The notes under the pieces are model-generated. The model was not told the DNA's origin, made no database searches, and saw only the letters and a program-made list of their open reading frames with translations. Both the position numbers and the translations under genes were made by a program. A stretch of DNA of 64,000 nucleotides. Origin: Nereocystis luetkeana (lineage: Eukaryota > Sar > Phaeophyceae > Laminariales > Laminariaceae). Within the stretch, counting starts at the first letter, position 1. Each line of letters starts with the position of its first letter. Below are positions 321-63,748 of this stretch, in pieces. The stretch lies in NCBI GenBank assembly GCA_031213475.1, contig JARUPZ010000016.1, positions 9,254,270 through 9,318,269 of the forward strand. The letters are read 5' to 3'.

Positions 321-3300
321 GTAAGAATTGAGAGAGGGGGGGGGGGGGGGGGTTACTCGATAGGAGAGATGCTCTCGATCTCATGCATGGTCGTAGTCGT
401 AGAGGGGGGGGGGGGGGTACTCGATCTCATGCATGGCCGTAGTCGTATAGCCATAAGACCCTCGTATCTCTGCAATGCCGGAACGGAGCACGTCGGGTTT
501 TCCCCGGCAAGGCAGACATTGCTTGCACCAAGCGCCGCGGGGAGGGGGGGGGGGGAGGGGGTTGTACTCGATTCGGGGGGGGAGGTGAGGGAGGGCAGTA
601 TATAGAGCTTGACACTTGTTCGACACCATGGTTGATGCACGCTGTGGACGAGACGTAGAGGAACTTCCCTGACCATGGTTGATTGGGTTTCGGCTTACGG
701 TAAGTTTCATACATCTCGCATCCAGTAACCCTAAACCGTTGTGTCGTGTAAGCGGTAAGGTGCCCTCGGGGGGGGGGGGGGGGAGAGGGTAGGTCGCTTG
801 TGGTACGTCGCTTTGCGCTTTTCTTTTCCTCGTGAGGCAGCTACGTAGGCAAGGTACGTGGCACGGTTGCAATTGAAAAAGGGTTACACCCCCCCCAGCC
901 GGTTTAGCCATCGCGGGGCTCTGGTTGCCCTCGTTTTGGTTGGGGTGCGATAAGCTTTCCGTTATTCGCCGGCATACCCTGTGGGACCGGCTGGTGTAAT
1001 GGCAGCGATGTAAACAGTATGCAAGCAGCTGGTGGCGCAACTAGTCTCTGCGACATCTCCCTTTCTCGATGACATCGACCCGTGTTTGCTGGAGCCAAAA
1101 CCTTGACGTGTGTGTGAGTGTGTGTGTGTTTTTTTTCGTATTTTGTTGAGACGCCCTGCACTAGCGGTATACCCACCTTCTCCAACGGGCCGAGATAAAC
1201 CCCACAAGTATCGCCCCTACCCCGCCCGCCAACCCCTTCCCCCCTGCGAATATGCCCTACGTTCGACTCTTTCTTTTGGTTTGCGTGAGTAACCCAGGAA
1301 CAAGTTCAAGGCGCTGTTTCCGAACTGTCACATGGAGAACCTCTACTCCATCAGCGAGTGCCACGACATTAGCTTCTGTAACCTGGACGAGCTGAACACC
1401 ACCGAGAGCCCCAAGTACGCCCCGTGCGGAACGGTGGTTCCCAATGTGCGCGCCTACATCCTCGACGATCAGCTGGAGCAGGTGGGCACGAGAGAGGGGG
1501 GGGGGGGCAGCTTGCTGTCCGAATCCCCCCTATACCGGTATACACCCTGTCGCCCCCCATTCCACCCGTCTTGTTTCGCTCGAAACGCCTTCGCGTAGTT
1601 GCTTCAGTACTACCTCGTCGTCGCTTTTACTCGTACCACTCTGTTCCGAAATGTAGGTACCTTTTTATAGTAATAAACCAATCAAAACGGTCCTTTGTTT
1701 TTCCGAACAGCGGGGGTGTATAACATTGTTTGGAATTGATGCGTAGGGCCCTCCCTCTTCTTTTGCGGTTGGTTAGATAGGGGCTCTTCGCCCAGGACTG
1801 CCGCCCCTGCGTTGATTAGATGGCGAGCAATCAACGCGGCACCTTGTTGCGGAGAGCAGCCCCGCCCCGGTAAAATCGATGTCACGCGCGAGCACGAGAG
1901 GGGTAACTAAGTAAGCCAGGTGCCCTGTCGCCCCCTTCCACTTGTCTCTCGTTGCCTCTCGAAAGGCAATCGATTGGATACTACTGTACGCACGCAAACG
2001 GGTACCAGTATGTAATTCTCGTGGCGTGGCTCAGGGTTATTCTTGCCGGGGCGAGCTTTTTTTCCCCCCCATACTTTTCCATATTTATTTTCGCCCAGTA
2101 TTTCTACTCTCCCAAGTTTTTCCCTGACCTTTTTTAATTTTTTGTTGAACTACAAATTTCCTGATTTTTTTGCTTCTGAAGAATTTCACAAATTGTGACA
2201 GAACGCCTCCGTATCTTGATAGATACGCTCAATTATTCCCAAAGTTGAGAGATTCTGGGAAAAAAGAGCTCTCCGATAAGAATGGGCCTTACTAGCTGGG
2301 CCTTTTTTTTTTTTTGGGGGGGGGGGGGGTGGCGGGGGACAGGCGCCCGGTGTCGGACCGACAGGTAGAATCACTGCGCGTGCCTGCCGACACACTTTGT
2401 AGGTGTCGTCGGAGACCCTTCACCCTGCTAGGACTGCAGTCCCGTTTCGGGGACAAACTACTTGGAATATGGCTGGTTTGTGTCCTATACGGGGCTCTGC
2501 AGTCCTGTAAGGGTTGAGACCCTCTTGTGGACTTGAGAGGGAAAAAAATTGACGACAAAACAAAAAAGTGGCGAGTACAGCTAACTAAGGCCCCTCCGAA
2601 ATCATATCATGCGCGGGCGAAGCCACCGCACCGGTGCAGTGCTTCAGTCCCTAAATCTGTGAAGAGGCACGGCTTAACTCACCCACTATATACTCCTGTA
2701 CCTGGTAGTTCTCATGATGATATCATGATGGACCTCACTGGTGGCTCTGTTGCTGAATGAGCCTCTCCCACAGCCAAGCAGGTCACTGGTGATCAACGGT
2801 GTTGCCGTAGAAGTGATCGGTGCTGGCGCTGGGAGAAACAGGCAGACGTCAGGGATTTCTACAGATAGATAGCTGAGTCTGAAATATCAACAACAGTGCA
2901 TCTGATGATGTCTCCCAAGAACTTCCACGCGACGTATGTATGTATGTAGTATATTTGGGGGCGTGTACCTCCCGTGTTTATTATTATTTGGGGGGCGTGT
3001 ACCTCCCGTGTTTCGTTGAGCAGTCCCATATATTCCCCATTGTCGTTCCCCGTTGCGCCCCCATGGTCTTCCCCACATTTCTCCACTGTTTCCCACCCCG
3101 TTTTTAAGACACGCTATAAGTAGTCCCATTCCATCCCGTTGGCGTCACGTTCGACTCCCATACCGCCACATGAATCAAACTCCCAGCTTCCCGTCCCATT
3201 CCCAGCCTGTGTATGAATCAAGTGGGCTTTTCCCGTTCCCATCACAACGGAACGCAACAATTTGGCGATGGGATTCCCATTCCCATCACAATGCGGGGCG

Positions 3301-6300
3301 AAAAAAAAAACGCCTGCGGCGAGCGAAACCCGACCGTCCCGTCCCGCACGGGCCTCGTCTCCCTTTTTGACTATTTAATACCACTCTAAGCCGAAAAATC
3401 CGGACGGTTGATGTATTAGTGATCTTAATACGAAAGAATCGTTAAGTTTACCCCCAGAGAGGTATACAGAGTATCTGCTGCTTGCCGCTTGCTGTGTGTA
3501 ACACCGGCAACACTCGACGATGTAGCAGTCATCTGATTCAAGCTTTCCTTTCGTGACAGCCACGACCGGTGTTTCCGCGTGTTTAGCGTATATGTGCCAT
3601 GTTAAATAGAATCATACAGCAGAAATAGGAACCATAACACCACTGCTGTAGTCTGTTTCAACGGTACCGCTGTAGAGGTCCTGTAGGTGTAATTCCATTT
3701 TTTTGTTTCTCTCGCAACTTGTGCCGCAAATTGTTTACTGTCAGGGATAGCCTTTATACGGCCCAACACATGTACACGTAAACCAAACACGAACGGCCGT
3801 AACTGGATTTTTTGTCTAGTCACATCTGTCGCCGTACCCCGTACGTATATAAAAAAACAGCGACAGAGGGCACGCAATCCACAGACAAACATGGCTCATT
3901 GAACACGCGAACTGCTGCTTCGGTGCACCGCCCTCCACATGCACTGTCAGCAGTTAAACTACTATCATTAACTATATGTACAACATCATTATACAGGCCA
4001 AACGGAGTTCCCGCGCTAATTCCACAAGTGATATATTTGTGGTCTGGTCTCTAGAACGGATTCAGCAAAATTGTCTGTCTGTCCGATCAGGGTCACTCAA
4101 TGGTCACCTACGGACAGATTTCTTTCGAAACGGCTACGCCCATGTCGCACGATTCAGGTCGGAGCCCTCGCGCCGGCGATCGTCATGGCCCAAACCACAC
4201 CTCTTCGGGTGCCCTGTGTGTGGAGTTATCAGAGTTGACTTCCAGCATCCCAATCGGGGTGACGGGTCGAGCGGCAGCAATCGCTCCGCCAAGGCCAGCG
4301 GAAAAACTGTTCGTCACGTCTATTTTCTAGTGAAAAATTGGGTAAAATCAGTTTTGTACTCTGTGCTGCAAGCGATAGGCGGCACGGCAACAGCCAAGGC
4401 TGTCCTCCGTCCCTGCCTCCTTGCCGCTTCTCTCCGCCCGTCCCTCGCTCCCTCTCCCTTCCTTCCTCCCCCCCTTCCTCCCTCCGCCACTCCCTCCCAC
4501 CCGCCATCCCCCTGCCGTCGACCGTAGTTTACTTGAACTCATTGCCGCAGCAGCAGCAACCGACACGTAACGCTGGAGAGCATACTCCCTACCGCGCGTT
4601 TACACTTCGTATACCCGAGCTGTTGATGTAGACGAGGCCGAGCTACGAGTTAATAATACACATGATATACTGATGCACATCTACACCTCTAAGTGCGTTC
4701 AGACCGCAACGTGCCCGTCTTCAGATGCCATTTTTTTTACAGCTTCATGATGCGCAAAGTATCGAATGTTTACCGTGCAAGCCAAGTAGTGCATGCCCAT
4801 AAAATGAAAGGTAAGAATAAGACACTTGAATATTTTGACATACTGTAGTAGAGCCGCACTCACCTGCGTGCAGGCAGAAAAACTCGGCAACGGTGGTGAG
4901 AGCAGCAACACACATCGGATACTGGCAGTACATACAGACAGCATCCGCTGTAGTCAGCAGCCACGAGTTGGTTAGTGGTGGGAACGGGGGTACTCTTCTA
5001 TGTTATAGTTGAGAGGATATACCCGCGGCCATGTTAGTCCAGTTTGCACATTGGTTTTAGCTCGTGTGCGCTTTCTTCGTCTCGTGTATTTCGAGGCAGC
5101 CGAATTTTCGATTTTTTTTTTTTTCGGATCTTCCTAGGGCTCCAGCACCTTTGTGTGACCACGGTCTCCTTCGTCAGAGAGTTAATGTGAGAACAACAAC
5201 AACAAAAAACAAACAACACGCATCTGCCACAATCTGAAGAGCACTCTAACCGGCATTCTGGTTAAGAATAGCCGGGGCAAGGAACTGTCTAAAATTTGTC
5301 GTACTTAACGTGGACGGGACCTTAAGACACGCCCTGACTAGTCACGCCCGTGGTCCACACACACGTTCCAAAGAGGGCGAAACAACAACTTCACCGTGTA
5401 ACCACACATTGAATCGAAGTTATACACACCGGGAGTGGGAGCCACGCGACTCCGCCCCACATAAACGGAGTCCATGGTTGATGGCATGATCTCAACCCAG
5501 CCGATTTCGAGTGAACGCCCACCGGGAAGGCTTCATCAAACAAATGCCGACTGCCTTGTGGTGTCTCAGAACAGCACCCACGAGGGGCGCAGAGGACGTG
5601 TGGCCACACGGAACTATTCAATAATCCAATAATACTCTTACCCTGTCCGTGATACCCCCCTTCTTTGATGTTTGTGGGACGAGTGATCGTTAGATGCGGG
5701 ACCTTAGACGCGTCCTAGTGACGTATTCATGCCACTCCCTTTTTACGGCGTACTTTCATGGATATTCGTATATTATTTTAGATTAGTAGGACTGGTGTTC
5801 GTTGCAGCGTTGCCTCTGCCGGAAATACTGTCCCGATATTCGTAACCACCCTCTGCGTGAGGAGTAGAAGCGAGGGGGCGGGGGCTGGTTGAGGGTCGGG
5901 GTGCTACGTCTTTTATAGCGGTTGTTGCCGTGTGGTAGCTCTGATCAGGTGTTGAACTCAATCAAGTGGAACCGGTCCCGCGGTAGCCTCCAGATATTTT
6001 CTTACCTGGTACAGAACAGCAGTACCACCAGGCAGCAGTAGTAGTCCCCGCAGAAACGAGGTGACACATAACGCCTCCCTCGTACAAACTTGAACTTAAA
6101 CTACGATTGCAAACGTCTACAAATGGAACATATAACATTAATTATGTGCAATTCTCCGCATGTATGTGGCGAACGTTTTCAACCATGCGTCAGTATAAGG
6201 CGGGATGAAAACAATTCGACGTCGAAAATTCGGAAGCGAAATTGAGATAAAAAAACACGAAAAGGGAAACGAGAGAGAAAAAACAGGCAACAACCAGGAA

Positions 6301-9300: not shown

Positions 9301-10037
9301 TCACAGTGCAGGCGTCCCCGGTGGCTTGGTAGGTGGTCCGCGTGCCTATCAAGATCAATTTCGTGGGTTCAAGCCTCACCGAGGGCATGCTCTTTGGGGC
9401 TTTTTTCTTGCATAAAAAAATGATTAGCGGAAAGCGCGAGAGCGTGAGTTAGCTACAGCACATTCGATGAAAATCGACGAGCAGTGGGAATGCTGAGCCC
9501 TATGCGCGATAAAAAATGAAGGCACGTACCGCGGGGGAGAATTGTAGACACCTGTGACCCACGGCTTGTCCAGAAGCTCGTTGAGGGTAAAACCTCCTAC
9601 GAGTTAGGCAGGAAAGTAAAAGTGGACGTCTGCTCAAACCACGACCCACCCTCGGGTGCTGCGCTCCTGTGGTCTCGCTCTTGTCCACTCCATCCGTATG
9701 ATTGGCCTGGTGAAGTCCCTTTTCCTTACGCACAAAAATAGAACCAGAGGTATATTGCCATTTTACCAAGGTTCACCATGGAAACATTAGACCCTCTCGG
9801 GATCGTCGTCGTCGTTTGCCGAAAACTCCCTGGCGATCATGGGTTGGCATTGGTCTGGGTCGGCGATCACTGAAAACTGAGTCGGCGATCACTGAAGAAT
9901 CATCGTTGAAGATGCCTACCTGGTATATATATATATTTTTTTTTTGGATGTTTCGGGTATTTCCCCCCCCCCTCCCCCCTCCCCTTATCATCCTCTTTTC
10001 TCTCCGTCCCGCCCCTTCCCTCGCTCGAAACAAACGT

Positions 10038-10073
<36 letters not shown>

Positions 10074-13000: not shown

Positions 13001-14187
13001 CACTCCCAGGCGCTTTTGCCTCTGGTTTGTCGGGGACCAGGGACTTGAACGCCCCCTGATCAGATCTCGCCCGAGCGGAAATTGGAGCACCACTGGTGGG
13101 ACCGTATGGGGCCTTATTGTCTTGTTTTGTTCTGTCGAAGAACCATCTTATGAAAAAATGTGCCAGCTACCTGGTAGTTAATAATATTCCCTCCGCAACT
13201 CTGAGAACTTCCTTTGAAAGGAGACACACCATGTATTTTCGGGTCGGTTGTTTGCGCGGAGGTGGATCGGATCGGCTCGATCCCTCATCAGGTATACCTA
13301 GCGCCTCCTGCAGTCTGCTCTCCTCTTGATGCTCGAGTTTTTTTTTTCTTCTTCGTATTACCCCCTGTCTTTAGTCTCTCTCTCTCTCTCTCGCTCCTAT
13401 TGATACGCTTAATATGTACCAGGTATTGTTTTCGTCCTCCTCTCTCGCTCGCTCGCTCGCTCGCTCTTCCCTTCGCTTTATTTTTTGTCCTCGTCCTTGT
13501 TTTGTCTCTTCTTTTTGTTTCTTCCCCCCCGTTGCACGTTCGGTGCCTTCTGCCGTCGCTCGCTCCTTCATGTTTTGCTTGTTGTCTTACATATTTTTCT
13601 GGGTTTCCCTTCTTACGCGTTCACTGCCTCCTGCGGTCGCTCCTGTGTCCTGCTCCTCCTCCCTCGGCCAGGTGCGGTTCGCCCCCCACAGCTGCGTACA
13701 CGACGACCTCTACGCGGACGGAGACCACCAGACGCCGGCGTCGGAGGGAGCCGATCCCGCGGCGCTGAAAGCAGGCTCCGCGATCGGCCTCCAAGAAGAA
13801 GAGGAACAAGCGGCATTCACCTCGGCGCTGACATCCACGCAACGGTACGAACCTGACTCCCTTGCTTCCCCCCCCCCCCCGCGCGCCACATGCTCCGCCC
13901 CGGCATTGTAGGGATGCGAGGGTCTATGGTCATAAGAATACGACTACGGCCATTTTTTTTTTTTTTTTTTTTTCCATCCCATTCATTATCTTCGCACATC
14001 TTCTTCTCTCTCTCCTTCCAACTCGTAACTCAGATCCGGGGTCACATAGCAGGCTCTTCTCCCCCCTTCCCGCTACGGTACGTGCCTTCATGTTTTATCG
14101 CGAGAAGATTTCAGCCTTTTCTTCCCTCGTCGACTCGCATCGAATTGTGCCTGCATGAGATCAAGTACATCTCTCGTATCGAGTACA

Positions 14188-14218
<31 letters not shown>

Positions 14219-17200
14219 ATACGCATGGTTGGTGAAAACCCAACGTGCTCCGCCCCGGCATTATAGGAATGTGAGGGTCTATGGTCATACGACTAGGACA
14301 CTCCCCCCCCACCCCGCTCTTTTTCTCCCTCGCCGCTCCCTTCACCCTTTTGGGGAAGGCCGCGCGCGTTGATCTTCGGCTAGGGTGGCCGTCGCCGTCG
14401 CGCATATGCTTTTGTCTGCCTATATTTGTAGTAAGGTTTGACGCACTTTTTGCCAGGAAGGCGTTTTTTTGCTGACTCCTGCAGCGTTGTTTTTTTTATG
14501 CGTCAGGGACCAGGGAGTACCCCACCACTGATTCGCCGGAAGAAGCTCGAAGGCAAGATGAAGCAGAATATATATACACCCCCCCCCCCCCCCCCCCCTG
14601 CCCACCTCGCACACTCCCGACTTTTTTCTCGGTGACTCTCTTTTTTTTTTTTGTTCTGTTGTTTTTGTCGCGCGCAACAGAGTCGTGGCGCGCCTGTGGT
14701 CACGCCTCCTCTCCGTCGACGAGTCTACCATCGAGCCGTCCTCGGACTTCTTCGACCTCGGCGGGCACTCGCTCCTGCTGGCGAAGCTGTCGGCGGCCCT
14801 CTTGAAGGACGCGGGCGTGGCAATCGCCATCCCCGCAATCATCGAGAGACCCACGCTGCGGGAGCTGGCCGAGCTGCTCGACTCCGAGATGACCTCGACC
14901 GCGGGGAAGACGGCGTCGCCGGCCATCTTGTTCACTCCGGCGCAGAGGTGAGGTGATCGTACACGGGGGGGAGGCAAAACCCCAAGGCAGGCGACGACGG
15001 GGCAGGCGACGACGGGGGTATGATACATAAAAGTTTTTTTTTGTTACCAATTTTTTTTTTTCTGACTAGAGGGGACTACCCAATATCGCTGGAATGCCAT
15101 GTTTTGGTTCACCCGACAGGTTTAGTTAGTTGTGTGCCTAAGGCGCGGGCTTGGGCATCAGGTTTGGCGCTGAAGAACTGCCCAGTATTGATGGGAATCC
15201 CATTCAGAGTTACATGGTCGGCAAAAAACATGTGGTCGAATAGTTGCCCGTGTGGGGGCTTGGCATTGTGTGTGCGGTAGGTTGAGCGTGCGAATGTTCC
15301 GAAGCCCGCCTTCGAGGTGAAATAGAGGAGAGGTTCTGAGGTGTAGAGCCTCAGACGGTTGAAGCGCGTCCCTCTACCCTACCGTTACATGTGTCGTGCA
15401 TGAGCTATATGCCGAGCATGCCGGGTCTCTTGAAAGTGTCCGCGGGTTGTTGAGCATACTACATACAGGTATTCTTGTACTGCGTGCCTGAAAAGAACGC
15501 CTCTTCGTACCGTGCGTACCTGGGAGTAATGACCCATACAATGGATGTCTTGGGAGCTCCTCGCATGCATGTTCCACACGGGGCAACATCTCCAACTTCA
15601 AGATTTAGAGGAACAACGTGGTCAGCGATACGACCCCCATCCCCCCCCCTCCTCCCCCCACCCAACACGCCTTATGCGGCGCTTTTGTTAGCATGGTTGC
15701 CGAGGGCGCCCCTGAAAAAGAGAAAACGGCACCACCACGCCTCCGGAGGTCAAAATGGAAAACCAACCTGAGTTATGTGATCACAGGACGAAACAAAAAA
15801 ATAAGTTATTTTTTTGTATCTTTGTCTTCTCTTGGTCCCGATAGTATCCGTCCGTCCGCCCCCCCCCCCCCCCCCCCCCCCCGCCTCCCATCCCTTGTCT
15901 GACGAAGAAGAGAAAAACTGCGGCTTGTTACTTCTTTTCTTTTTTGTTTTTTCACGGGGCACCCTCGTGCCTATTTTGTCTTTTCACTCTTCTGGCGCGT
16001 CTGCGATGCACTTTTTGTGACACAGGGCTGTCGGGAAAGCGTGGGCTCGGGTCCTGGATAGCGGCGTGGAATCCCAGCTGTCCCCGAGCTCCGACTTCTT
16101 CGACGTCGGCGGCCACTCTCTCCTCCTCGCCAAGCTCACCTCCGTGCTCGTCGAGGAGGCCGGGGTGACCCTGAGCATTCCGGACATCATCGAGTCTCCC
16201 ACCCTGGACGGCATGGCCAGGCTCGTCGAGGAGGAGCTGGGCGGCGCGGCGGCGCTCGGGATTCAGCCTGCGGTTGTGCCTGGCCTCAAGTCGGTACTTC
16301 CCAGTGTCGACGGCGAGGACCCGATCGTTCTGCAGAACGGTTCCGACGGCGTGAAGTGCATCACCACGTGCGAGCCGGCGTGCGCGGGGGGCGCGGGAGA
16401 GGCGCGGGCGGCGCCGGTCGCCGACCCTTGCGGCGGAGGCGCGCAGGCTTGACCCAACCATTTACCCCGCTGGAACGCGTAAGACTGGGTGAGTGGGCGC
16501 GAGTGGAAACGAACCCCTCACGTGTCTTCTTTTTCCACGAAGTTTTTACTTGAGAGTACGGGGGATCACAGTAAATAGGACCTACGGTGGACACAAAAAC
16601 CTACCTGGTATAAATTTGGCTACTTTTACTAACAATATCTGGTCCTTGCTACTTCTGCCCCCCCCCCATAATAGTAGTCACACGATTACAAATATGTAAA
16701 TTATTACCACGTCGTGCTGGAATGGTGCTGTTTTAGGAACAGCACATTATCTTGATAGGACGTGTGTAAGAACAAACACTGAATGTGAAAATTGAAAAGG
16801 AGCGAAAAGCGAAAGCGGAAGCAAAAGCCTCCCACAGAAATATAAAACCAGTAAAAGTTTTTTTTCTTTTTTTTTTCAACAGAAGATACTCTGTGGTACC
16901 CGTGGGGGCTCTTTTTCTAAAAAAGTTCATCGATCATTCCAATGTGTCTGGCACCATTTACAGGCCGCCGCTTGCAATGTCTGGCACCATTTTCAGGCCA
17001 CCGCTTGCAACGTCTGGCACCGATGAGCCTCCTTTCGTTGCACCGCTTTTGTGGCACCTTTTGTGATACCACTTTTTTGTGCCACCGCTTTTCGTGACAC
17101 CTTTTTTGTGACACCGCCTTTCGTGACACCTTTTTTGGACACCGCCTTTTGTGTGCCGCGTTTTTTGTGCCATCGGTGGACAGATACTCTCGTTTCCGCG

Positions 17201-17421
17201 CGGCGAGATCCTCTCGACCCCCCCAGCGGGTCCTGCTGACCGGCGCCTCGGGGTTCCTAGGAGCCCATATTTTGGCTTCTCTGCTCAAGTACACCACTGT
17301 CGACGTGTTCTGCCTCGTTAGGGCTGGCAACAAGGAGGAGGCGCTCATCCGCCTCGAGGACACTTTGAAGAAGTGAGGCCTGCGCAAGTCATGGGGGCGT
17401 TGGGTGGACTTCAGGGGCGTG

Positions 17422-17458
<37 letters not shown>

Positions 17459-20400
17459 ACTCTGCGGATACCCGGGTACCTACCCGGGCGTGTACGATCA
17501 AAATAGACGTACTCGTACGTAGACGTTTTTTTTTTTTTTTTTTTTTCCTCGGGTAAGCCAGTGTTTTCTACGCTTGCCCTGCACGAGTACTGAGCACACG
17601 TTGGTTGGTCTTGGGGTTGGTTAACCCTTTTAGGACCCCAGTCCTGTTTTGGGGACAAATCACTTGGAATTAGACTGGTTTGTCCCCAGATCGGGACTGC
17701 GGTACCTAAAGGGGTTAAGGAGAATGATCGGTGTTTGGGCGGGGGCCCACGCCGTTCAACTGAAGGATGAGGTCGGAGCACGCTTCGTGCGGGCGAAAGC
17801 AGCGTCCAGGCTTGGGCCACCCTGTCGAGGACGCTCTGGAGCAGAAGTGGTTACCGATGGAAAAGGCGTCCCTTGCTGGGGAAACGCCCGTTGCGGGTGG
17901 CGCATCGGACTAGAAATAGTCGCATGGGCATACGCAGTTTAGGTATATACTTATATGAAGATATACGTAGCTTGAATTGCCAGCTACCTACCTACCAGGT
18001 ACCTACCTACCAGCTCACACTCATGCCCGCCTCTTGTCGTCCCGATTGTTGTTGTTTTTCTTCTTCTTCTATTTTAGGTACAGCCTGATGGAAGACAAAG
18101 CGGTGTCGTCGGCCATGGAGAGGGTGGTCCCCGTCCCGGGAGACCTGTCGCGGCCTCTGCTCGGCCTGGACGACAGCGATTTTAAGGTCAGTATTCTGCC
18201 GCGGAATCATGAAGAGTGTACCTGGTAGATGCCAGGGCCGTGCCATGGTTGGGTTTAACTCGATTATAGTGCAGCCCAGTTTTTCCCCATGTGTATACGA
18301 GGCCCTACAACTAAGGAGCTGCCCATACGTTGGAGGTGTATTGCATATCCTTATTTGCAAACCCGTTAATTGTGTTTCAACTGTCTTGGCTTCTTTTTTT
18401 TTACGCTTTTTCTCTTAAAGTCGCGGTGGTTGAGTCGAGGCATGGAATTTTTCTCACGTGAGCATCCTTCGGAATTTTTTACGTGGTGCAGTAGTGCCGG
18501 TTACCGCCATGGTGCCGGTATGCGCTATTACGGGGGACCATAGTTAATAGGACCTACCGGTATGGTATACATACCTGGTATATATTTAACCTTTTTTACT
18601 AACGATATTCGGTTCTATTAACTATGGTCCCCCCGTAATACTGCACTACTCAACTCAACCGGCACTATGTAGCGGCAACCGGCACTATAAAGCGGCAACC
18701 GACACTATATAGCGGCAACCGGCACTATATACCGACAACCGGCACTATATATCGACAACCGGCACTATATACCGACAACCGGCACTATATAGCGGCAGCC
18801 GGCACTATATAGCGGCAACCAGCACTATATAGCGGCAAACGGCACTATATAGCGTCAACCGGCACTATATAGCGGCAACCGGCATTATTTACTCCGCACA
18901 CTGCCACACTGGTTGATCCCATCTGTGTAAAGCGATTTCACAGGCACTATGTAGTGGCAAACGGCACTATGTAGAGGGGGCACTGCTGCATTGGTCGTAG
19001 CACGCATCGCCACCTACCGTAATCGTGCGCTCGTTCGATGATTTCATTGACTCTCTCCTGTTTTTTTTGTTGGCGAAATTCAACTCGGCCTGCCCTTATT
19101 GCTATTGCGGGGGACCACAGCAGTTAATAGGACCTATGGTATACATAAAAACCCATGTATTCAACCATTTTTACTGACAATATTTGGTCCTATTAACTAT
19201 GGTCCCCCGTAATAGTCCGCCCTCCACGCTGCTGCTGATGCTGCTGATGCTGTTGATGCCGCTGCCGCCGGAAAATAATCTTTTGAAATATGCCCCGGCC
19301 GCTGTGTGTACGCGTGGTTGCTTTCTTTGCGTACCCGACCCCTGCGGCTGCTTGCTACAGATGCTCGCGGGCGAGCTGGACTCCATCATTCACAACGGGG
19401 CGTCGGTTAACCTCGTCCGGTCTTACCAGTCTCTCAAGCCCGTCAATGTCCTCGGCACCCAGGTACGTTTTCCAGAGCGTCGGGGTGGGCGGGGGGGGTG
19501 TTTGAGGGTCGGCGGGGGCGGGGGGGGTATACTCATGAGGGGGGGAGGAGCTGCCCTTTACTCCTGGCGTACGGCAGGGGTCTAGGTACGAGGCACGGTG
19601 GCGAGAAGATCGTGCCAGAGGCTTGGCTCGGCCCGCGGACGGTCGTAACTTCCTCCGTTACGCGAGATTTTTTGACGGCGCGCGTCAGGAAAAAAAAAAC
19701 TAGCGAGGGCGTTCTTCCCTCGTTTTTCGTTGAGGGGCGTGTTGGTTTGTCTCCCCCCCCCCCGCCCACTTTTTTTTCACGTAGGGATGCGAGGGTCTAT
19801 GGCCTTACAACTACGGCCGTGCATGAGATCCGAGTGCATCTCTCCTATCAGGTTCATCCCTCCCCCCGCTTTTTTTCTGCTGCGGAATGTATCTCACACA
19901 AAAAAAATCCGAGCACGTTTTGTCTCCAAGAGCTTGGGTGGGGTCCTCTAAAAGAGGGTGTTTGCAGAATATTTTAACCCAATTGGGACTTTTTCTTGAA
20001 GAAAAGGCGTGGCCTTGTAACGCCTCTAAAACCTTCTGCTACGAGCGACCAAAACAATTGTTGGCGAGTTTGGTGGGTGTTACCAACCATCGAACCGTCT
20101 GCCACGACAATGGTTGATGAGTTTGGTGGGTGTTACCAACCATCGAACCGTCTGCTACGAGCGACCAAAACAATGGTCGGAGAGTATGGTGGGTGTTACC
20201 AACCATTGAAACGTCTGCTACGAGCGACCAAAACAATGGTTGCTGAGTTTGGTGAGTGTTACCAACCATTGAACCATCTGCTACGAGCAGCGTTGTGCGG
20301 ACAGGATCACGATGCTCCCCCTGCCGTGCGACTCCTTGCGTTGCTGTGATAAGCAATTGTGATCGCCAAAATATATACTTCGAAATATATATATATTTAT

Positions 20401-20631
20401 ATATATATTATATATACCAGGTATATATATATATGCTCCAAGAGGGTTATAGGTTATAAAGAGGAGAGGAAGAGGAAGTGTGAAAAGACGAAAAATGCCG
20501 AAGAAAAAAGGTGACAATTACAGCAGAGCATCGCCACCACACCAAAGTTGTAGCGCTGAGGTAGGGGGATGTGTGCCCGAAGTGCACAGCAGAAAGAATT
20601 GTGACACGCAGCTGCGGGGTGGCAGCAGCAG

Positions 20632-20664
<33 letters not shown>

Positions 20665-25787: not shown

Positions 25788-25823
<36 letters not shown>

Positions 25824-28800
25824 ATACTGGTATGTATTACTATGTATTACTATGTATTACTATGCCCCCCCCCCCGTAATATAGTGTGTTCCATGCTGTG
25901 CGCTCGTGGTGGCAGCTTCTTGTATTCCCCTTAAGACACACGCCCTTTTATTGTAATACCCCAGCACAGCTACCCGGGGTGCTTCGTTTTGGCCGGTGTC
26001 GGAAGAAGCGTCCATTTATTTTCGGCCGGGCTCGATTTCGTATCAGTCCGTCCGAAAATGTAAGGACAATTTTGATATATATACCAGGTATAATATAATA
26101 TATCTATACATTACATATATATTATATGTATAGTTCGAAGCGTATATACTTGAGATACACACCGTTTGCCATCGAACCCGGCCGAAAACAAATGGACGCT
26201 TCTTCCGACACCGGCCAAAACGAAGCACCCCTGGTAGCTGTGCTGGGGTATTACAATAAAAGGGCGGGGATTGTTCCCTGTACCCCTTTCGTTCTTTGCG
26301 CCCGCCCGCCAACGCCGCGGCGCAAAACGGCGCAGTGGACAGCCTTCATGGTGGTCGTTTAGCCAGCGCGAGAAGGTACCGCGTGTAGAGAGGCTTAGGA
26401 GCAGGAAAGGACGTTGATGAGGCGAGTTCGAACGACCGACGTGGCCCACGCGACCCCCGTTCGTTTGGGTTCCTTTTCCGGCCTCTTGATTATTTTCATC
26501 CCCCGGTTTTGTTTATTTTCACGCGGAGGTCGCTGGATTGTTCCGAAATGGTGGGGGGAATTGTGGCGTGGGTATCATGTAGTTCCTGCGCTGGTCATCT
26601 GTTCCCCGTTGCCGTCCCCGCGTCAGCATTCCCAGCTTGGAAACGCGCGCCAACCCGCTGCTGGCGAGGCGCGCAAGTGTTGAGTCTGTCGGCGCACGCG
26701 TGTGTTGGTCTTGGTCCGTTGATGTGAGCTGGTTAACTTGCAGATTGGCGATGTGTTGAGCGAAACCCTGCTACCTCTTTCTTTACTTTCCTTTTCTTCC
26801 TCTCCTTTTCTTTTCTTCCTGTCCTTTTCTTTTCTTCCTGTCCTTTTCTTTTCTTCCTCTCCTTTTCTTTTCTTCCTCTCCTTTTCTTTTCTTCCTCTCC
26901 TTTCCTTTTCCTCCTCTCCTTTCCTTCCCCTCCTTTCCTCTTCTTCCTCTTCCTTCCTTTTCTTCCTTTCCTTCCTCTCATGCATTTCCTTTTCTTCCTT
27001 TCATGCCTTTTCCGTTCTTTCCTTTCCTCCCTTTTTCCTCCCTTTCCTCCCTTCCCTTCATTCCGTCTCATTACCTTCTTCTTCCTCTCCGGCCTTTTTC
27101 CTCCCGTTCTTCCCTTTCATTCCTTTTATTCCTTCCCTCCCTTTTCTTCTGCTCGGCGCGCAGGTGCTTCACGTCCAAAACCCCGGGGAAATGCAGGCGT
27201 TCGGGGACGTCGCTGGTTGGCTGAAGGAGACGACCGGGACGAAGCTGGAAGGCGTCGCCCTGGACGACTTCCGTGACCGCATCAGCAAGGCGGTGGAGGG
27301 AAAGGACCCCCATGATGTCGGCGTCCTGGCGAAGGTACACCTTTAGTTAGTTTGCGCGATGGTAAAAGGTACACCCTCTGATTAGGTTGAGCGACGGCGA
27401 AGGTACACACTCAAATAAATAGAGCGAAAACGAAGGTGCACCTTTATTTAGTTTGCGCGATGGTAAAAGGTACACCCTTTGATTAGATTAAGCGACGGCG
27501 AAGGTACACATTCAATTAAATAGAGCGAAAGTGAAGGTACACCTTTATTTAGTTTGCGCGACGGTAAAAGGTACACCTTCGATTAGATCAAGCGATCGCG
27601 AAGGTACACATTCAACTAGATAAAGCGAAAGCGAATGTGTACCTTCGATTAGACAAAACGATAGCAAAGGTACAAACACCTTTCATCATATCACACGATA
27701 GCATAGGTGCGGTTTCGATCAGATTTCTCGTTTCCCGGTCATCCGTGAGAGGGTGGGCAGAGCAAGTGTTCTGGATGAACACGTGACTCCTGCGGATTTA
27801 TGTCAGTGGGGACAAAGTACGGTCTCGCCGTTTGTCCTGTGGCGTGTAGGCGTAGAGTACAAGGCGTTATACCCCGAATAATCAGGCATGCGAGAGTTGG
27901 GGGGGCGGGGAGGAGGGGAAGGGCTATTTGCTGTCAGTTTCCTCTCGCGAGAAGCTCCATGACTCATCACACACCCGATTTTGATCACGAACAGCCTCAA
28001 CTAGAAGATGAGGACGAACGAAATCTCGAGGATGGGGTCCTGCAATTAAAAAAAAAAAAAAAAACCGTCAAGTCTTCCCCAAAAACAAAACATAAACGCT
28101 CGAAACTGTCATTTCGTCCGTCGACGACAGCAGTTTTTAAAGCGTCCCATGAACATTGAAGCATTTTTCACGGATTTGTTAGGGTCCATCCTAATCGAGC
28201 AAAACAAAACGCGCGTGTGTGTGTGTGTGTGTGTGTGTTTTTTTCTTCTTTTTTCTTCTGCTTTTCAACATTTCCACGCACACGAGGCGGTGTGGAACGT
28301 TTAAAAACAAAGCCAGGATCCCACCCTAATGAGCTCGTTCGTCTCAGAGAACGCACTGCAGTAATCTGAACCAGATATTGTCATTACGGGGCACCATATT
28401 AAATACCTGGTAGGACTTATGATACAAACAAAAAGCTATCCTTGTATACCAGGTATTTACCTATGAATCCTAACATTGTTTGGTCCTTTTTACTGTGGTC
28501 CCCCGTAATAGTACAATACACATGCAGTATTGTAGGGTCGTCCTAAACGTGTATTACAGAGTACCAGGTAAGGGAACAAGCTGTAGTAGTTAGAACCAAG
28601 CGTGGTTAGTAGACATAGGGGGATAGATAGACAGGTTTGGGGGTCCATCGTGGGTTCTGATTCTTACAACATTAGCCCCCCCCAGTACTGCAGTACCTGT
28701 ATGTATGTATGTGGGTACTTAAGGCCGTTACTATTACTACTGTGTTTGTACACGCAACCCCGATGAACGATCCCATTGGTCAGGCGTATCGCATTGGTTT

Positions 28801-29726
28801 TGTTGTAGTACAAGTGGGATCGCAAATAGCGAGTATTGTGTATTAATCTGGGCGGAAATACATGGACCGTTTATACCTGTATATGAAGATCAACCGGTCC
28901 TTATGGTACGTAGTGCTAATGGGGTTGCAAATAGCGAATATTATGTACCAGGTACGAGGTAGTGCTAATGGGGTTGCAAATAGCGAATATTATGTACCAG
29001 GTACGAGGTAGTGCTAATGGGGTTGCAAATAGCGAATATTATGTACGAGGTAGTGCTAACTGGGTTGCAAATAGCAAATATTATGTATCACCCCGGACGG
29101 AGATACAAGGACCGTTTGTACGTTAATACGAAGACCAACCGATCCTTATATTTACGGCCAGAGTGGTATTGCGCAGTTCCGCGGTTGAAGAGCATAATAG
29201 GTTAAAGAGCTCGCGTCAGGCGGATAGTGTTGGGCCCCCGAAAGCACCCCTTTGCTGTGCCGCGGTATTCGCAAAAGTGTTTTTGAATGGCCGCCCACTC
29301 TCACCCGATGAGAGTCGACACGTCCATCCGCCTTCTCGTCGCCGGAAAACGCTCGTTTTTTGTTTTGTTTTTTTCTTTGCTGATTGCATCAACATTTTTT
29401 CTTTTTAGCGACCACATGCTCGTGTCATAGTGCGTACACTCGGTATGCGTGTTCCAAAGTTTTTTGTACTCGCGCGCAACCAGAGCTTCGATAACCCGAC
29501 CGATTCCCTCCGGCGTACTTTCTGTCACACCAACGCCATGTTGTTGCTGGGCCGCCATCAGCTTCAAGCCGGCCTGGATGGCTTCGCCTACTACCTTTCC
29601 GACCCAGGGCGCCTCGACTGTGCGGGACTCAAACATGCACTTGAGGAGTCGGGCATCACCTGCCCACCTCTAGACAAGGGCCTCGTAGGAACCTACGCGT
29701 CAACGTTGGCGGCGGGCCGGGAGTAG
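159..29726 (+). CDS. NRPS-like A-T-T-R enzyme (adenylation, two carriers, thioester reductase); 16 exons, 5' partial
   Basis: Multidomain adenylate-forming reductase whose first exons lie left of the window. Seen in order: late adenylation domain (exons 1-5, with LYSISECHD, LYDTGDR, GRCDFMVKVRG and the SGKADKKKLPE lysine motif), an acidic linker (exon 6), carrier 1 (exon 7, FFDLGGHSLLLAKL), carrier 2 (exon 8, FFDVGGHSLLLAKL), and an extended-SDR reductase (exons 9-16, TGASGFLG, HNGASVNLV, YGQSKWVAEQ, RPGNMS). Family knowledge: such enzymes adenylate an acid, load it on phosphopantetheine and release it reductively as aldehyde or alcohol. The substrate cannot be read, because the specificity region is mostly outside the window. 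Visible coding sequence is about 2.7 kb over 29.5 kb. Introns are 0.6-6.2 kb with GT-AG ends and compatible phases except at exon 8/9 and in exon 12, where the frame changes. Alternatives are an aminoadipate-reductase-like enzyme or a decaying paralogue. Confidence 0.88.
383..545. repeat. Poly-G-linked repeat, two partial copies
   Basis: (G)n followed by TACTCGATCTCATGCATGG..CGTAGTCGTA, then ATGCCGG.ACGGAGCACGTCG and GGCAGACATTGCTTGCACCA. Confidence 0.75.
1298..1481 (+). CDS. Gene 1 exon 2 (A5 region)
   Basis: Acceptor CCCAG|G and donor CAG|GTGGGC. It reads NKFKALFPNCHMENLYSISE followed by CHDISFCNLDELNTTESPKY and ..CGTVVPNVRAYILDDQLEQ. LYSISE occupies the place of the usual YGPTE A5 motif. 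Phase 2 in, phase 0 out. Confidence 0.9.
2055..2290. mobile_element. MITE-3 copy (CTCTCCGATA termini)
   Basis: Shares GAATTTCACAAATTGTGACA, GAACGCCTCCGTATCTTGA and the terminal CTCTCCGATAAG with the copies at 33165 and 35400. Confidence 0.7.
2415..2518. repeat. MITE-2 (palindromic GTCCCGTTTTGGGGACAAAC family)
   Basis: Inverted repeat of the type CCTTTTAGGACTGCAGTCCC...GGGACTGCAGTCCTAAAAGGG, about 100 bp. Confidence 0.7.
6438..6557. repeat. Two-copy 56-bp direct repeat
   Basis: TTGTGGAATAAGCACTCC..CCCCGTTCCTTGGCCGTGCA occurs twice in tandem. Confidence 0.85.
6911..7020. mobile_element. MITE-1 copy
   Basis: About 110 bp with near-perfect ~30-bp terminal inverted repeats (TTACGGGGGACCATAG.. 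and complement) flanked by TA. The internal part is AT-rich (AAAACCTATATATTTAACC type). Non-autonomous; no transposase frame. Confidence 0.9.
7141..7192. repeat. Short hairpin
   Basis: GCAAGTCGGCTGGCC..GGCTTCGCCAGCCGACTTGC forms a ~14-bp stem 450 bp before exon 3. Confidence 0.75.
7645..7860 (+). CDS. Gene 1 exon 3 (A6-A8 region)
   Basis: Acceptor CCAAAG|G, donor AAG|GTGAGA; 72 codons, phase 0 to 0. It reads VPVGVPGRMWIAGPTLAIGY (A6-like), then LYDTGDRCRYLPSGSIEVIG (A7), then GRCDFMVK (A8 start). The preceding intron of 6.2 kb is the largest in this gene. Confidence 0.93.
8210..8422. repeat. MITE-2, two overlapping/nested copies
   Basis: Contains CAGTCCCGTTTTGGGGACAA, a central GGTCCTAAAA/TTTTAGGACTGCAGTC junction, and a right arm TTGTCCCCACAACGGGACTG. 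Confidence 0.7.
8941..9090 (+). CDS. Gene 1 exon 4 (end of A8)
   Basis: Acceptor CGGCAG|G, donor AAG|GTAAAA; 50 codons. It completes A8 as VRGFSVVIGAVEAAITEHPL. The usual R-x-E-L-G-E-I-E continuation is replaced by FSVVIGAVEAAI. It then reads VSTVVVMTEGEEGSVNKKLV, the C-terminal subdomain strand and loop. Confidence 0.92.
9315..9615 (+). mobile_element. tRNA-derived SINE (SINE-B)
   Basis: Box A TGGCTTGGTAGG (9322-9333) and box B GGTTCAAGCCT (9365-9375), a different tRNA-like head from SINE-A, but its body converges on the same GCGATAAAA..GGCACGTACCG..TGTGACCC segment. Confidence 0.78.
10117..10245 (+). CDS. Gene 1 exon 5 (A10 region)
   Basis: Reads KFLKSRLPPYAVPHVCILLD then AIPINVASGKADKKKLPESG. 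The lysine in SGKADKK matches the catalytic A10 lysine (NGKxDR in the family). Phase 0 in demands the acceptor ATCCAG|AAG at 10116, not the earlier CCCCAG at 10100. The donor is GAG|GTACTA. Confidence 0.88.
11925..12190. repeat. GATC-rich dispersed repeat
   Basis: Clusters of ATCTACAGATAGATC and TAGATCATC plus a core (GTTGCCGGGTGGGAGC-type, CCCGGGTTGGATCTG-type) shared with the other copies in the window. Confidence 0.7.
12420..12740. repeat. Poly-G-linked repeat, two copies
   Basis: Two direct copies, each starting in a G run, the second complete to the GGTGAGCTGCATCCTA end block. Confidence 0.78.
13672..13844 (+). CDS. Gene 1 exon 6 (acidic linker between A and carrier domains)
   Basis: Acceptor CGGCCAG|G after a strong pyrimidine tract; donor ACG|GTACGA, phase 2 out. 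It reads VRFAPHSCVHDDLYADGDHQ and ends in a Glu-rich stretch (LQEEEEQAAFTSALTSTQR). It has no recognisable domain. It is assigned because both phases fit its neighbours and it leads directly into the helix 1 start of carrier 1. Confidence 0.8.
13973..14154 (-). mobile_element. SINE-A, 5'-truncated copy
   Basis: Reverse-strand copy of the body and tail only (from the GCACAATTCGATGCGAG block to CATTCATTATC), with a poly-T at the tail side. Confidence 0.82.
14150..14295. repeat. Poly-G-linked repeat, inverted partial copy
   Basis: Reverse complement; the homopolymer is a C run of more than 20 between its two halves. Other partial copies lie at 19780-19850, 20940-21065 and 23030-23110. Confidence 0.72.
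14681..14947 (+). CDS. Gene 1 exon 7 (carrier domain T1)
   Basis: A complete carrier domain on one exon: VVARLWSRLLSVDESTIEPS, then DFFDLGGHSLLLAKLSAALL, then ..IPAIIERPTLRELAELLDS. The Ser in GGHSLL is the predicted phosphopantetheine attachment site. Acceptor CAACAG|A and donor AG|GTGAGG, phase 2 in and out. Confidence 0.95.
16026..16293 (+). CDS. Gene 1 exon 8 (carrier domain T2); 3' boundary uncertain
   Basis: A second carrier similar to T1: AVGKAWARVLDSGVESQLSP, SSDFFDVGGHSLLLAKLTSV, ..IPDIIESPTLDGMARLVEEE. The acceptor is GACACAG|G. The frame stays open to a TGA at 16450-16452, so the donor must lie inside. TCG|GTACTT after 16293 is my choice because phase 0 matches the exon 9 acceptor at 17226. 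The alternatives are later GTs, or a second frame change using the strong GTGAGT at 16489. Confidence 0.75.
16555..16675. mobile_element. MITE-1 copy, diverged, with TACCTGGTA insertion
   Basis: Degenerate copy in gene 1 intron 8. The consensus CCTATATATTT is interrupted at a TA by CCTGG (16602-16610). Confidence 0.75.
16945..17165. repeat. Tandem repeats in gene 1 intron 8
   Basis: About three ~34-bp units (GTCTGGCACCATTT, CAGGCCACCGCTTGCAA) grade into ~27-bp units (TTTTTTGTGACACCGCCTTT) that end at the exon 9 acceptor region. Confidence 0.8.
17227..17372 (+). CDS. Gene 1 exon 9 (reductase Rossmann start)
   Basis: Reads RVLLTGASGFLGAHILASLL, with the GxxGxxG nucleotide-binding loop, then DVFCLVRAGNKEEALIRLED. 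Donor AA|GTGAGG, phase 2 out. The acceptor CCCCAG at 17225-17226 has a good C-tract; an alternative at 17182-17183 would add about 14 residues. Confidence 0.9.
17421..17457. repeat. G homopolymer of ~30 or more
   Basis: Longest G run in the window, in gene 1 intron 9. Runs of 10-30 G or C occur dozens of times in introns and never in the assigned exons. Confidence 0.97.
17621..17718. repeat. MITE-2 copy
   Basis: Near-perfect palindromic copy from TTAACCCTTTTAGGAC to CCTAAAGGGGTTAA. Confidence 0.82.
18078..18186 (+). CDS. Gene 1 exon 10 (reductase)
   Basis: Acceptor ATTTTAG|G after a long T/C tract, donor AAG|GTCAGT. It reads YSLMEDKAVSSAMERVVPVP then GDLSRPLLGLDDSDFK, the typical GDL..P.LGL segment of thioester reductases. 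Confidence 0.93.
18525..18640. mobile_element. MITE-1 copy with TACCTGGTA
   Basis: Full-length inverted-repeat copy in intron 10; carries TACCTGGTA at 18572-18580. Confidence 0.88.
18655..18870. repeat. 20-bp minisatellite
   Basis: About eleven units of CCGGCACTATATAGCGGCAA; two outlying units near 18945-18975. Confidence 0.92.
19102..19215. mobile_element. MITE-1 copy
   Basis: Full-length copy about 150 bp upstream of exon 11. Confidence 0.9.
19361..19462 (+). CDS. Gene 1 exon 11 (reductase)
   Basis: Acceptor GCTACAG|A, donor CAG|GTACGT; 34 codons. It reads MLAGELDSIIHNGASVNLVR then SYQSLKPVNVLGTQ. HNGASVN is the conserved H-x-A segment of the family. Confidence 0.95.
20030..20290. repeat. 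~63-bp tandem repeat, four units
   Basis: Units contain CTGCTACGAGCGACCAAAAC and GTTTGGTGGGTGTTACCAAC. Confidence 0.9.
20710..20825. mobile_element. MITE-1 copy
   Basis: Full-length, diverged copy in intron 11; flanked by CA on both sides rather than TA. Confidence 0.85.
21393..21487 (+). CDS. Gene 1 exon 12 (reductase; contains a net +1 frame change)
   Basis: Starts in phase 0 as EVLRLAVTE, which continues GTQ from exon 11. The catalytic-strand motif VKPVHFISTSGIFPFSS near the 3' end lies in the next frame, and only that frame joins exon 13 correctly (G|AC gives DTKTF). The 95-nt length is 2 mod 3 where 1 mod 3 is required. So there is a one-base insertion, a two-base deletion, or an assembly error between about 21405 and 21440. 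Confidence 0.85.
21955..22290. repeat. GATC-rich repeat with 14-bp minisatellite
   Basis: Same core (AGTACAGACCCAACCCAGGA, GTAGCATGAGCTAG), then about seven copies of CTGATCTATCTCAT at 22170-22265. Confidence 0.75.
22368..22579 (+). CDS. Gene 1 exon 13 (reductase active-site Tyr/Lys)
   Basis: Reads TKTFMESADMSEMWKELSDG, then YGQSKWVAEQMCIQARSRGL, then PVSILRPGNMSPSSTTGAWN. YGQSK is the YxxxK catalytic pair and RPGNM the following loop. Acceptor CGGCAG|A, donor CAG|GTGCGC. Confidence 0.95.
23166..23291 (+). CDS. Gene 1 exon 14 (reductase)
   Basis: Acceptor TTCGCAG|G, donor CAG|GTGAGG; 42 codons. It reads GCLELGCAPEGVKWQLDLTP then VDFAARVVVHVAVEQPHKAL. The PVDxxA segment is typical of the C-terminal half of thioester reductases. 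Confidence 0.94.
23726..23835. mobile_element. MITE-1 copy
   Basis: Full-length copy in intron 14, TA-flanked. Confidence 0.9.
23935..24044. mobile_element. MITE-1 copy
   Basis: Second copy only 100 bp from the previous one; the intervening AACCGAATATGGTGT-type sequence is itself repeated to 24180. Confidence 0.85.
24346..25129 (-). pseudogene. Antisense open frames inside gene 1 intron 14, possibly a decayed inserted gene
   Basis: From a minus-strand ATG near 25103 the frame reads a basic start (GNSKKPEGTGRKGKKKKIVQ) and a helical charged stretch (EAAEGIRNRALKQRDESRAE, ..LFEQKGKLNLEQDLRHESD). Near 24780 a shift to the next frame continues plausibly as MKKGFVNPAVTARCKMCNTQ, then GCIGLLSAIVPEGLPDDVAH, ending in CTG/CAG repeat-coded Ala/Ser runs. 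No family recognised. It could be a transposon-derived ORF or a retrocopy with a frameshift. Confidence 0.4.
25681..25792. mobile_element. MITE-1 copy
   Basis: Full-length copy whose right end runs into a (TA)n tract. Confidence 0.87.
26775..27163 (+). promoter_or_regulatory. Giant polypyrimidine tract before exon 15 acceptor
   Basis: Almost pure C/T for ~380 nt (CCTTTTCTTTTCTTCCTCTC units) ending in GCGCGCAG at the exon 15 boundary. It is both a microsatellite and the 3' splice-site tract. Confidence 0.85.
27164..27334 (+). CDS. Gene 1 exon 15 (reductase)
   Basis: Acceptor CGCGCAG|G behind a ~380-nt pyrimidine tract, donor AAG|GTACAC; 57 codons. It reads VLHVQNPGEMQAFGDVAGWL then KETTGTKLEGVALDDFRDRI. 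The donor sequence is echoed repeatedly in the tandem array that follows. Confidence 0.93.
27331..27690. repeat. Tandem repeat derived from the exon 15 donor region
   Basis: Subunits of ~55 and ~105 bp in which GCGAAGGTACAC, the exon 15/intron junction sequence, recurs at least five times with divergence. Confidence 0.85.
28382..28511. mobile_element. MITE-1 copy with two TACCWGGTA insertions
   Basis: Copy in intron 15 interrupted at 28404-28412 (TACCTGGTA) and 28447-28455 (TACCAGGTA) relative to the family consensus. Confidence 0.85.
28905..29090. repeat. ~50-bp tandem repeat with and without TACCAGG
   Basis: Units GTGCTAATGGGGTTGCAAAT AGCGAATATTATG; two junctions read GTACCAGGTACGAGG (28946, 28995) and one reads GTACGAGG (29043). 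Confidence 0.9.
29562..29726 (+). CDS. Gene 1 exon 16 (reductase C-terminus and stop)
   Basis: Reads LQAGLDGFAYYLSDPGRLDC, AGLKHALEESGITCPPLDKG, LVGTYASTLAAGRE and a TAG stop. This is the normal family ending (CPPLDK..Y...L). The acceptor is CATCAG at 29561. The frame is open upstream as well, but only this acceptor joins exon 15 smoothly in phase 0. Confidence 0.92.
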   Translation, partial: LQAGLDGFAYYLSDPGRLDCAGLKHALEESGITCPPLDKGLVGTYASTLAAGRE

Positions 29727-35882: not shown

Positions 35883-35884
<2 letters not shown>

Positions 35885-36495: not shown

Positions 36496-36520
36496 GCGCT
36501 CGACGTCTATCGGAACAAGC

Positions 36521-36637
36521 GTTACGGGGGGCCATACTTAATAGGACCTATGGTACAGATAATATATATACCAGGTATATATTTAACCATTTCTCCTAAC
36601 AATAGTTGGTCCTATTAACTACGGTCCCCCGTAATAG
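36521..36637. mobile_element. MITE-1 copy with TACCAGGTA
   Basis: Near-adjacent copy; TACCAGGTA at 36569-36577 interrupts the central AT tract. Confidence 0.88.

Positions 36638-36791: not shown

Positions 36792-63748
<26,957 letters not shown>

Follow-up and report, generated by a model that had tools for sequence, protein, structure and literature searches.

The question raised by this stretch of Nereocystis luetkeana DNA (64,000 nucleotides of contig JARUPZ010000016.1, hereafter the window) is why the nine-letter string TACCWGGTA (W, A or T) is scattered over it in such numbers, and what kind of event could have placed it there. Our analysis suggests that the string is very probably the footprint, or scar, of a cut-and-paste transposon that targets TA, has CCAGG ends and is excised with 3' overhangs of about 5 nt. 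The evidence comes from the abundance of the string, from paralogous sequences in which it is missing, from the target preference of its flanks and from a spectrum of related by-products.

Abundance of TACCWGGTA and insertion at TA

An exact pattern count gave exactly 40 TACCWGGTA sites in the window, with starts from 2699 to 62842, in agreement with a first-pass annotation of this DNA that had put them at about 40 against about 0.5 expected. Markov models predict 0.43 to 0.46 sites, and the Poisson probability of at least 40 sites, given 0.46 expected, is 2.5e-62. Among the 13 positions named in that annotation, 11 are exact, while the sites placed at 13412 and 20416 really start at 13417 and 20415. 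TA stands on both sides of 40 of the 135 CCWGG in the window, compared with three for the second-ranking flank pair, and single-mismatch variants of the string (centre A/T aside) occur only 0 to 3 times each, so that the excess is sharp. The sites at 28946 and 28995 share one tandem repeat, and the window thus represents at most 39 independent events.

The same abundance was found throughout the genome. In 20 pieces of 10 kb, one from each of 20 other contigs (197.5 kb without N), there are 72 sites and none of the reversed control pattern. The genome-wide count proposed by the annotation, run on the whole assembly (465,085,209 bases in 1,987 contigs), yielded 182,395 sites against 1,744 of the reversed control and is thus far from chance expectation. 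The mean spacing is about one site per 2.5 kb, and extrapolation from the sample suggests that about 0.7% of all TA dinucleotides are occupied. No clear enrichment was detected in the three metagenome-assembled genomes (MAGs) holding contigs L011-L013 (23, 2 and 5 sites versus 14, 5 and 8 controls) or in a scan of viral contigs, where 10 loci had one or two sites each; of three further viral contig scans, two gave no match and one gave 4 loci. Among the papers listed for footprints, target sites and brown algae, no report of this phenomenon was seen, and the 20 titles listed out of 217 papers containing the exact nine letters are unrelated to it.

The manner in which the string arose can be read from copies that lack it. 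CCWGGTA was deleted in a script from each of the 111 out of 115 sites that have 80 bases of flank on each side, and the resulting empty form was searched in the window, the 20 pieces and contig L013. An ungapped paralogue across the junction was obtained for ten sites, and all ten read plain TA; for the remaining 101, no ungapped empty paralogue was found in this small sample. Seven of the ten lie in a family of miniature inverted-repeat transposable elements (MITEs; 1 to 30 empty matches each), two in unrelated repeats (L032 and L035/L039), and one is a weak match in a TA tract. As judged from these alignments to empty sites, which the annotation had suggested, TACCWGGTA arose by insertion of CCWGG with duplication of the TA; the proposal that such insertions occurred many times in unrelated sequence is borne out as well.

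The MITE is represented in the window by 25 stretches (e.g., 6910-7020, 23726-23835, 38015-38127 and 49799-49909). It is about 112 bp long, TA-flanked and nearly palindromic (TTACGGGGGACCATAG...CTATGGTCCCCCGTAA), and is itself probably a TA-target element family. This most abundant MITE of the window is also present in three bacterial MAG contigs, likely as a result of algal contamination or chimerism. L013 (JALZWD010000061.1, from a GTDB genome) reads as a chimeric MAG contig, in which bacterial genes come after about 3.7 kb of alga-like sequence containing three scars.

The 40 sites of the window are as follows; the strand is "." for all of them, and the basis is the pattern count and the flank listing unless another is given.

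2699..2707, scar TACCTGGTA
6003..6011, scar TACCTGGTA
9917..9925, scar TACCTGGTA
13168..13176, scar TACCTGGTA
13417..13425, scar TACCAGGTA
16602..16610, scar TACCTGGTA within a MITE copy (empty paralogues are TA, 26 empty matches)
17993..18001, scar TACCAGGTA in a CCTA-rich tract
18219..18227, scar TACCTGGTA
18572..18580, scar TACCTGGTA within a MITE copy (flanks, MITE mapping)
20415..20423, scar TACCAGGTA in a TA tract
26082..26090, scar TACCAGGTA in the loop of a long hairpin, 25941-26270 (flanks, arm alignment)
28404..28412, scar TACCTGGTA within a diverged MITE copy (empty paralogues are TA, 16 empty matches)
28447..28455, scar TACCAGGTA, second site of the MITE copy holding 28404 (flanks, MITE mapping)
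28562..28570, scar TACCAGGTA
28946..28954, scar TACCAGGTA in one unit of a tandem repeat, copied passively along with 28995 (repeat comparison)
28995..29003, scar TACCAGGTA in one unit of a tandem repeat, copied passively along with 28946 (repeat comparison)
31319..31327, first scar of tandem double TACCTGGTACCAGGTA (flank listing)
31326..31334, second scar of tandem double TACCTGGTACCAGGTA, opposite centre base (flank listing)
32577..32585, scar TACCTGGTA
32943..32951, scar TACCTGGTA
33148..33156, scar TACCAGGTA
36569..36577, scar TACCAGGTA within a MITE copy (flanks, MITE mapping)
37803..37811, scar TACCAGGTA in a TA tract (flank listing)
37822..37830, scar TACCTGGTA in the TA tract common with 37803
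37884..37892, scar TACCTGGTA
40096..40104, scar TACCAGGTA
41896..41904, scar TACCAGGTA at the spot beyond which the right end of a MITE copy (about 41800-41894) is missing (flanks, MITE mapping)
43647..43655, scar TACCTGGTA
45437..45445, scar TACCAGGTA within a MITE copy (empty paralogues are TA, 29 empty matches)
45469..45477, scar TACCAGGTA, second site of the MITE copy holding 45437 (empty paralogues are TA, 21 empty matches)
48976..48984, scar TACCTGGTA adjoining a 98-bp LTR-like repeat (LTR, long terminal repeat) inserted in a MITE copy (paralogue gaps)
52038..52046, scar TACCAGGTA in a TA tract (empty paralogue weak, low complexity)
54025..54033, scar TACCTGGTA
54315..54323, scar TACCAGGTA
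55089..55097, scar TACCAGGTA
55655..55663, scar TACCTGGTA
58666..58674, scar TACCTGGTA
59383..59391, first scar of tandem double TACCAGGTACCTGGTA (flank listing)
59390..59398, second scar of tandem double TACCAGGTACCTGGTA, opposite centre base (flank listing)
62842..62850, scar TACCTGGTA

The hairpin at 25941-26270 is a 330-bp long inverted repeat whose arms are 78% identical, and its loop is TA-rich.

Target preference and tandem doubles

Read outward from the TA, either flank of the sites follows Y A T A N T W, a palindromic preference. Over 10 positions, their divergence from all TAs amounts to 1.03 bits for 117 sites (window, 20 pieces, L013 and L049), the maximum of 500 random null draws being 0.17. 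The sites had been described as often lying in (TA)n tracts, which is partly right: once clustered sites and those in TA tracts are set aside, 88 of the 117 are left, and these still show the target preference. The mean leave-one-out flank score is 1.86 for the 112 sites of the window and pieces, compared with -2.35 for all TA and -2.65 for 489 CCWGG without TA on both sides.

These flanks also bear on the alternative, raised by the annotation, that all sites are embedded in one larger repeat family and were copied passively with it, to which we assign next to no probability. Two window sites do share a tandem repeat and some lie in MITE copies, but flanks in the window and pieces look mostly unrelated, and the target preference does not depend on sites that are clustered or lie in TA tracts. 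Within the MITE, scars occur in few of the 25 stretches and stand at differing TAs (e.g., 45437 and 45469 in one copy); they were therefore not passively copied. The empty paralogues and the unrelated flanks rule out passive copying as the main cause.

Tandem doubles (TACCWGGTACCWGGTA) occur 15,917 times genome-wide (control 2), a count that includes overlapping doubles, that is triples, against about 1,283 under random TA choice. The centre bases are equal in 8 and unequal in 6 of the 14 readable doubles, suggesting two separate events, unlike a duplication. Counted outward, a scar supplies the favoured T at position 6 and A at position 7, where TA occurs in a fraction of 0.281 of scar flanks (doubles included) versus 0.079 of the background; the excess of doubles fits the target preference. 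Sites less than 50 bp apart number 17, with 3.8 expected, and local hopping could add to this general short-distance clustering.

By-products, their asymmetry and decay

The scars are accompanied by related TA-X-TA strings, which were counted in the window and the 20 pieces with reverse complements pooled. CCAG/CTGG (25 seen versus 10.8 expected), CCGG (11 versus 3.4), CCAGGG/CCCTGG (9 versus 0.6) and TCAGG/CCTGA (9 versus 1.6) all have the flank preference of CCWGG, whereas TACWGTA, CCG, CG and CCCGG are enriched without it. CCATGG between TAs (TACCATGGTA) has high flank scores and was seen twice, with 0.42 expected, which is rare beside 112 CCWGG. TACWGTA, which we take to be the scar form of the Sleeping Beauty type, reached 106 occurrences against 36.6 expected (2.9-fold). 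It was not counted as a scar, as it lacks the target preference and 28 of the 106 lie in TAC-type repeats; it possibly represents scars of a second, CAG-ended family, e.g., pogo-like elements.

One target in the MITE is AAAAACC standing before a TA. There, the two strands of the genome hold 2,905 cases of CCWGG+TA (control 0), 134 with A, C or G directly after CCWGG (control 3) and 89 places AAAAACCTACCWGGT[CGT], that is T and then C, G or T (control 0). The 75 lettered rows of the 134 comprise 54 CCAGGG+TA, 9 CCAGGGG+TA, 1 CCTGGG+TA and 11 others, of which, on our reading of the rows, 7 resemble decayed scars running on into the MITE and 4 are mutually unlike. Extra-G products at this target are thus strongly asymmetric (63:1 for CCAGGG(G) versus CCTGGG, p = 7e-18), and the window and pieces show the same direction (CCAGGG 9 versus CCTGGG 0; CCAGGGG 2 versus CCTGGGG 0). 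Slippage in finished scars would make CCTGGG as common as CCAGGG and therefore does not fit. No conclusion can be drawn from the similar frequency of A and T at the scar centre, since reverse complementation turns the site into a member of its own class.

The products can be split into k leading bases of CCAGG and m trailing bases of CCTGG: 3+2 and 2+3 give CCAGG and CCTGG, 4+2 gives CCAGGG, 5+2 CCAGGGG, 2+2 CCGG and 3+3 CCATGG, and no decomposition yields CCTGGG. This spectrum points to an element that would start with CCAGG and leave up to five end bases on the flank. The annotation had put forward CCA and TGG ends that overlap on one mismatched base. This would mean 3-nt overhangs, which the spectrum does not support, since CCAGGG and CCAGGGG keep 4 and 5 end bases and are better accounted for by a 5-nt CCAGG overhang; moreover, 3-nt CCA overhangs would meet only at the mismatch, and simple joining of two 3-nt remnants gives the twice-seen CCATGG form.

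The target preference and the by-products make it improbable that CCWGG and TA were added to TA by a minimal insertion that involves no transposon, for example through repair or polymerase activity or as a 7-bp mobile unit. Such an insertion does not predict a palindromic, transposase-like preference, nor by-products of the k+m type in which CCAGGG outnumbers CCTGGG by 54 to 1 and 9 to 0, although it agrees with the lack of a donor element in the samples and with the uniformity of the product at AAAAACC (2,905 exact versus about 96 CCAGGG, taken as 54/75 of 134). Possible resident elements at this target are at most the 89 places plus about 7 (4/75 scaled to 134), and scars exceed possible CCWGG-ended residents by at least about 30:1 there; the ratio holds only if the ends read CCWGG, since deviating ends would escape the search.

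Besides the 112 intact scars, the window and pieces contain about 54 single-mismatch variants above expectation, about 35 of which are transitions (summed); the window by itself has fewer such variants than the combined sample. It follows from this transition-rich excess that decay of the scars is neutral and that their formation spanned a long period, and their total including decayed ones is estimated at about 295,000 if decay is Poisson. Scars that are inherited and old argue against programmed elimination, in which a domesticated transposase would remove TA-flanked germline elements in the sequenced cells and leave CCWGG. The uniform products and the low proportion of possible residents at AAAAACC would suit such a process, which is nevertheless very improbable. 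In Paramecium and Euplotes, TA-bounded internal eliminated sequences are precisely excised in mass by transposase-related enzymes and a single TA is left; the algal scars share the TA with them, but the ciliate process leaves no CCWGG.

Decay likewise bears on whether TACCWGGTA could be a palindromic binding site for a protein, maintained or multiplied by selection. The string is palindromic, very abundant and well kept in the window. Its location in MITEs and in repeats of simple and other kinds, the exact TA of the ten empty paralogues, the transition bias of its decay and its density of one per about 2.5 kb nevertheless make this explanation extremely improbable, and an origin by point mutation predicts many intermediates, as opposed to the 0 to 3 copies of each one-mismatch variant in the window.

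A predicted excision mechanism and its missing element

We propose that a transposon with 5'-CCAGG ends would insert at TA, duplicating it, and would later be excised by cuts after which each flank carries a 3' overhang of about five end bases, CCAGG. These overhangs could pair through four G.C pairs around a central A.A mismatch, anneal and be ligated, and such in-register pairing would explain the dominance of the CCWGG product, with mismatch repair giving CCAGG or CCTGG. Annealing one or two bases off register may produce CCAGGG or CCAGGGG (or the reverse complement of either), whereas CCGG or CCAG may result when a base is lost. Over time, a hit-and-run element of this kind would leave the roughly 182,000 intact scars and few or no resident copies. 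The palindromic target preference and the by-products, which fit two joined element ends, both strengthen the case for excision of a TA-target transposon, as first suggested by the annotation; the donor and its transposase, a 3' stagger of 5 nt and repair through annealing are what we infer from these sequences.

The overhang of Sleeping Beauty, a Tc1/mariner element, is self-complementary with one central mismatch that is resolved either way, and its footprint has the letters C(A/T)G between two TA. The algal scar would similarly consist of terminal element bases, left by a nearly self-complementary overhang with a central mismatch. It further shares with Tc1/mariner elements a TA target with TA duplication, seen here as one TA in each of ten empty paralogues, and a symmetric, weak, AT-rich preference around the TA, palindromic as for Tc1, for which passages of two papers give the consensus CAYATATRTG (PMC9635669, PMC8525568). 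Sleeping Beauty is described as leaving three-nucleotide 3' overhangs, with footprints of non-homologous end joining identical to them (PMC7827188), and its footprint is printed in one passage as TAG(T/A)CTA (PMC2874221). In known members of Tc1/mariner, the cuts fall 2 to 3 nt within the element (PMC2170065, PMC7827188). Unlike these, the algal scar has 5 nt instead of 2 to 3, exists in about 182,000 copies and comes without a donor, a linked transposase or a DDE_3 match. The source transposon would thus work like Tc1/mariner, but because of its deduced stagger, the scale and the lack of a donor it is not filed as a Tc1/mariner element.

Several results weigh against a CCAGG-ended transposon as the source. 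The sampled DNA in which the element was sought is about 0.06% of the genome, and no CCAGG...CCTGG element was found in the window, the 20 pieces or the 75 lettered rows at AAAAACC. A profile search with DDE_3 (PF13358) gave no match among 30 candidates scored, and one with Transposase_1 (PF01359) gave none either, its controls being silent too. DDE_1 (PF03184) had 28 matches; the two copies read, L049 and L050, show no CCAGG-ended inverted repeats, and no link to the scars was seen. The 89 places AAAAACCTACCWGGT[CGT], whose letters were unread, could hide decay or real elements. Up to five end bases are kept (CCAGGGG in 9 of 75 rows), in place of the 5' cleavage 2 to 3 nt inside that is typical of Tc1/mariner, and the stagger is deduced from the products. 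The 63:1 asymmetry rests on a thin A/T baseline, as the centre bases of ordinary scars at AAAAACC are 2 A and 2 T in the sample and 3 A in genome rows. Finally, the flank score is also high in other TA-X-TA strings, both MITE-derived (GGACC, CATAAAAACC) and TACA and CAGA, with CA slightly above background; by itself it is not specific, and it supports but does not prove membership.

Other candidates were examined and set aside. TACC...GGTA inverted-repeat pairs in the window and pieces number 66 versus 12 in the control; none of the 40 listed is CCAGG-ended, and by our own reading they are mainly MITE pairs, low-complexity runs, paired scars or arms extending beyond the TA. Among TACCWGG without a following TA or GTA (window, 20 pieces and L013), no recurrent inner sequence behaves as an element end; three related rows (L038 887, L039 2482 and L039 6552) are parts of one longer repeat. 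A paralogue-gap candidate at 48872-48983 is a high-copy LTR-like repeat with its edge at a scar and not the element sought. This 98-bp repeat (48878-48975) splits a MITE copy beside scar 48976 and has 301 candidates genome-wide; the 40 scored are 99-100% identical and several pairs lie about 2.9-3.3 kb apart, so it resembles a terminal repeat belonging to a young LTR-like element. Tc1/mariner peptide motifs were not found in the window, the pieces or L011-L013.

Pogo/Tigger-like elements also target TA, and brown-algal elements of this DDE_1 group are present in the Nereocystis genome, as the 28 matches indicate. The frame at 1087-2986 of L049 encodes a pogo-like DDE_1 transposase. Its named relatives in Ectocarpus sp. 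CCAP 1310/34 reach 83-88% identity over 54-57% of the query in the five top-scoring named rows (P0003, P0005-P0008), and other matches are lower or shorter. Identity this high across species could reflect horizontal transfer or domestication. Near position 470, L049 has a possible TA-CAGTGGGG end that is unrelated to CCAGG. Passages on Ectocarpus report 17 Mariner-Tc1 families, with mostly non-autonomous copies (PMC12477816), which makes a related donor plausible. Elsewhere in the window, frames with PP-binding and NAD_binding_4 domains (14562-14951, 16021-16452 and 22322-22801) are probably exons of a gene family resembling non-ribosomal peptide synthetases or aminoadipate reductases.

It is possible, although doubtful, that the scars come from a TA-specific transposase of a new kind, outside or unlinked to the tested Pfam models, with a 5-nt 3' stagger and a nearly pure hit-and-run mode. 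If so, nearly self-complementary overhangs would close donor sites efficiently and uniformly, and the genome would be a quantitative archive of about 300,000 single excision events. To our knowledge, excision footprints have mostly been studied singly, in mutants or cell assays; here, one footprint type is abundant enough for target preference, repair products and decay to be read from sequence alone. The 7-bp insertion is also a large mutational input, amounting to about 1.3 Mb (182,395 x 7 bp), and the predicted CCAGG end provides a handle for seeking the missing element in related algae. If confirmed, these scars would be a natural record of how often cut-and-paste movement occurs and how staggered breaks are repaired in a little-studied lineage.

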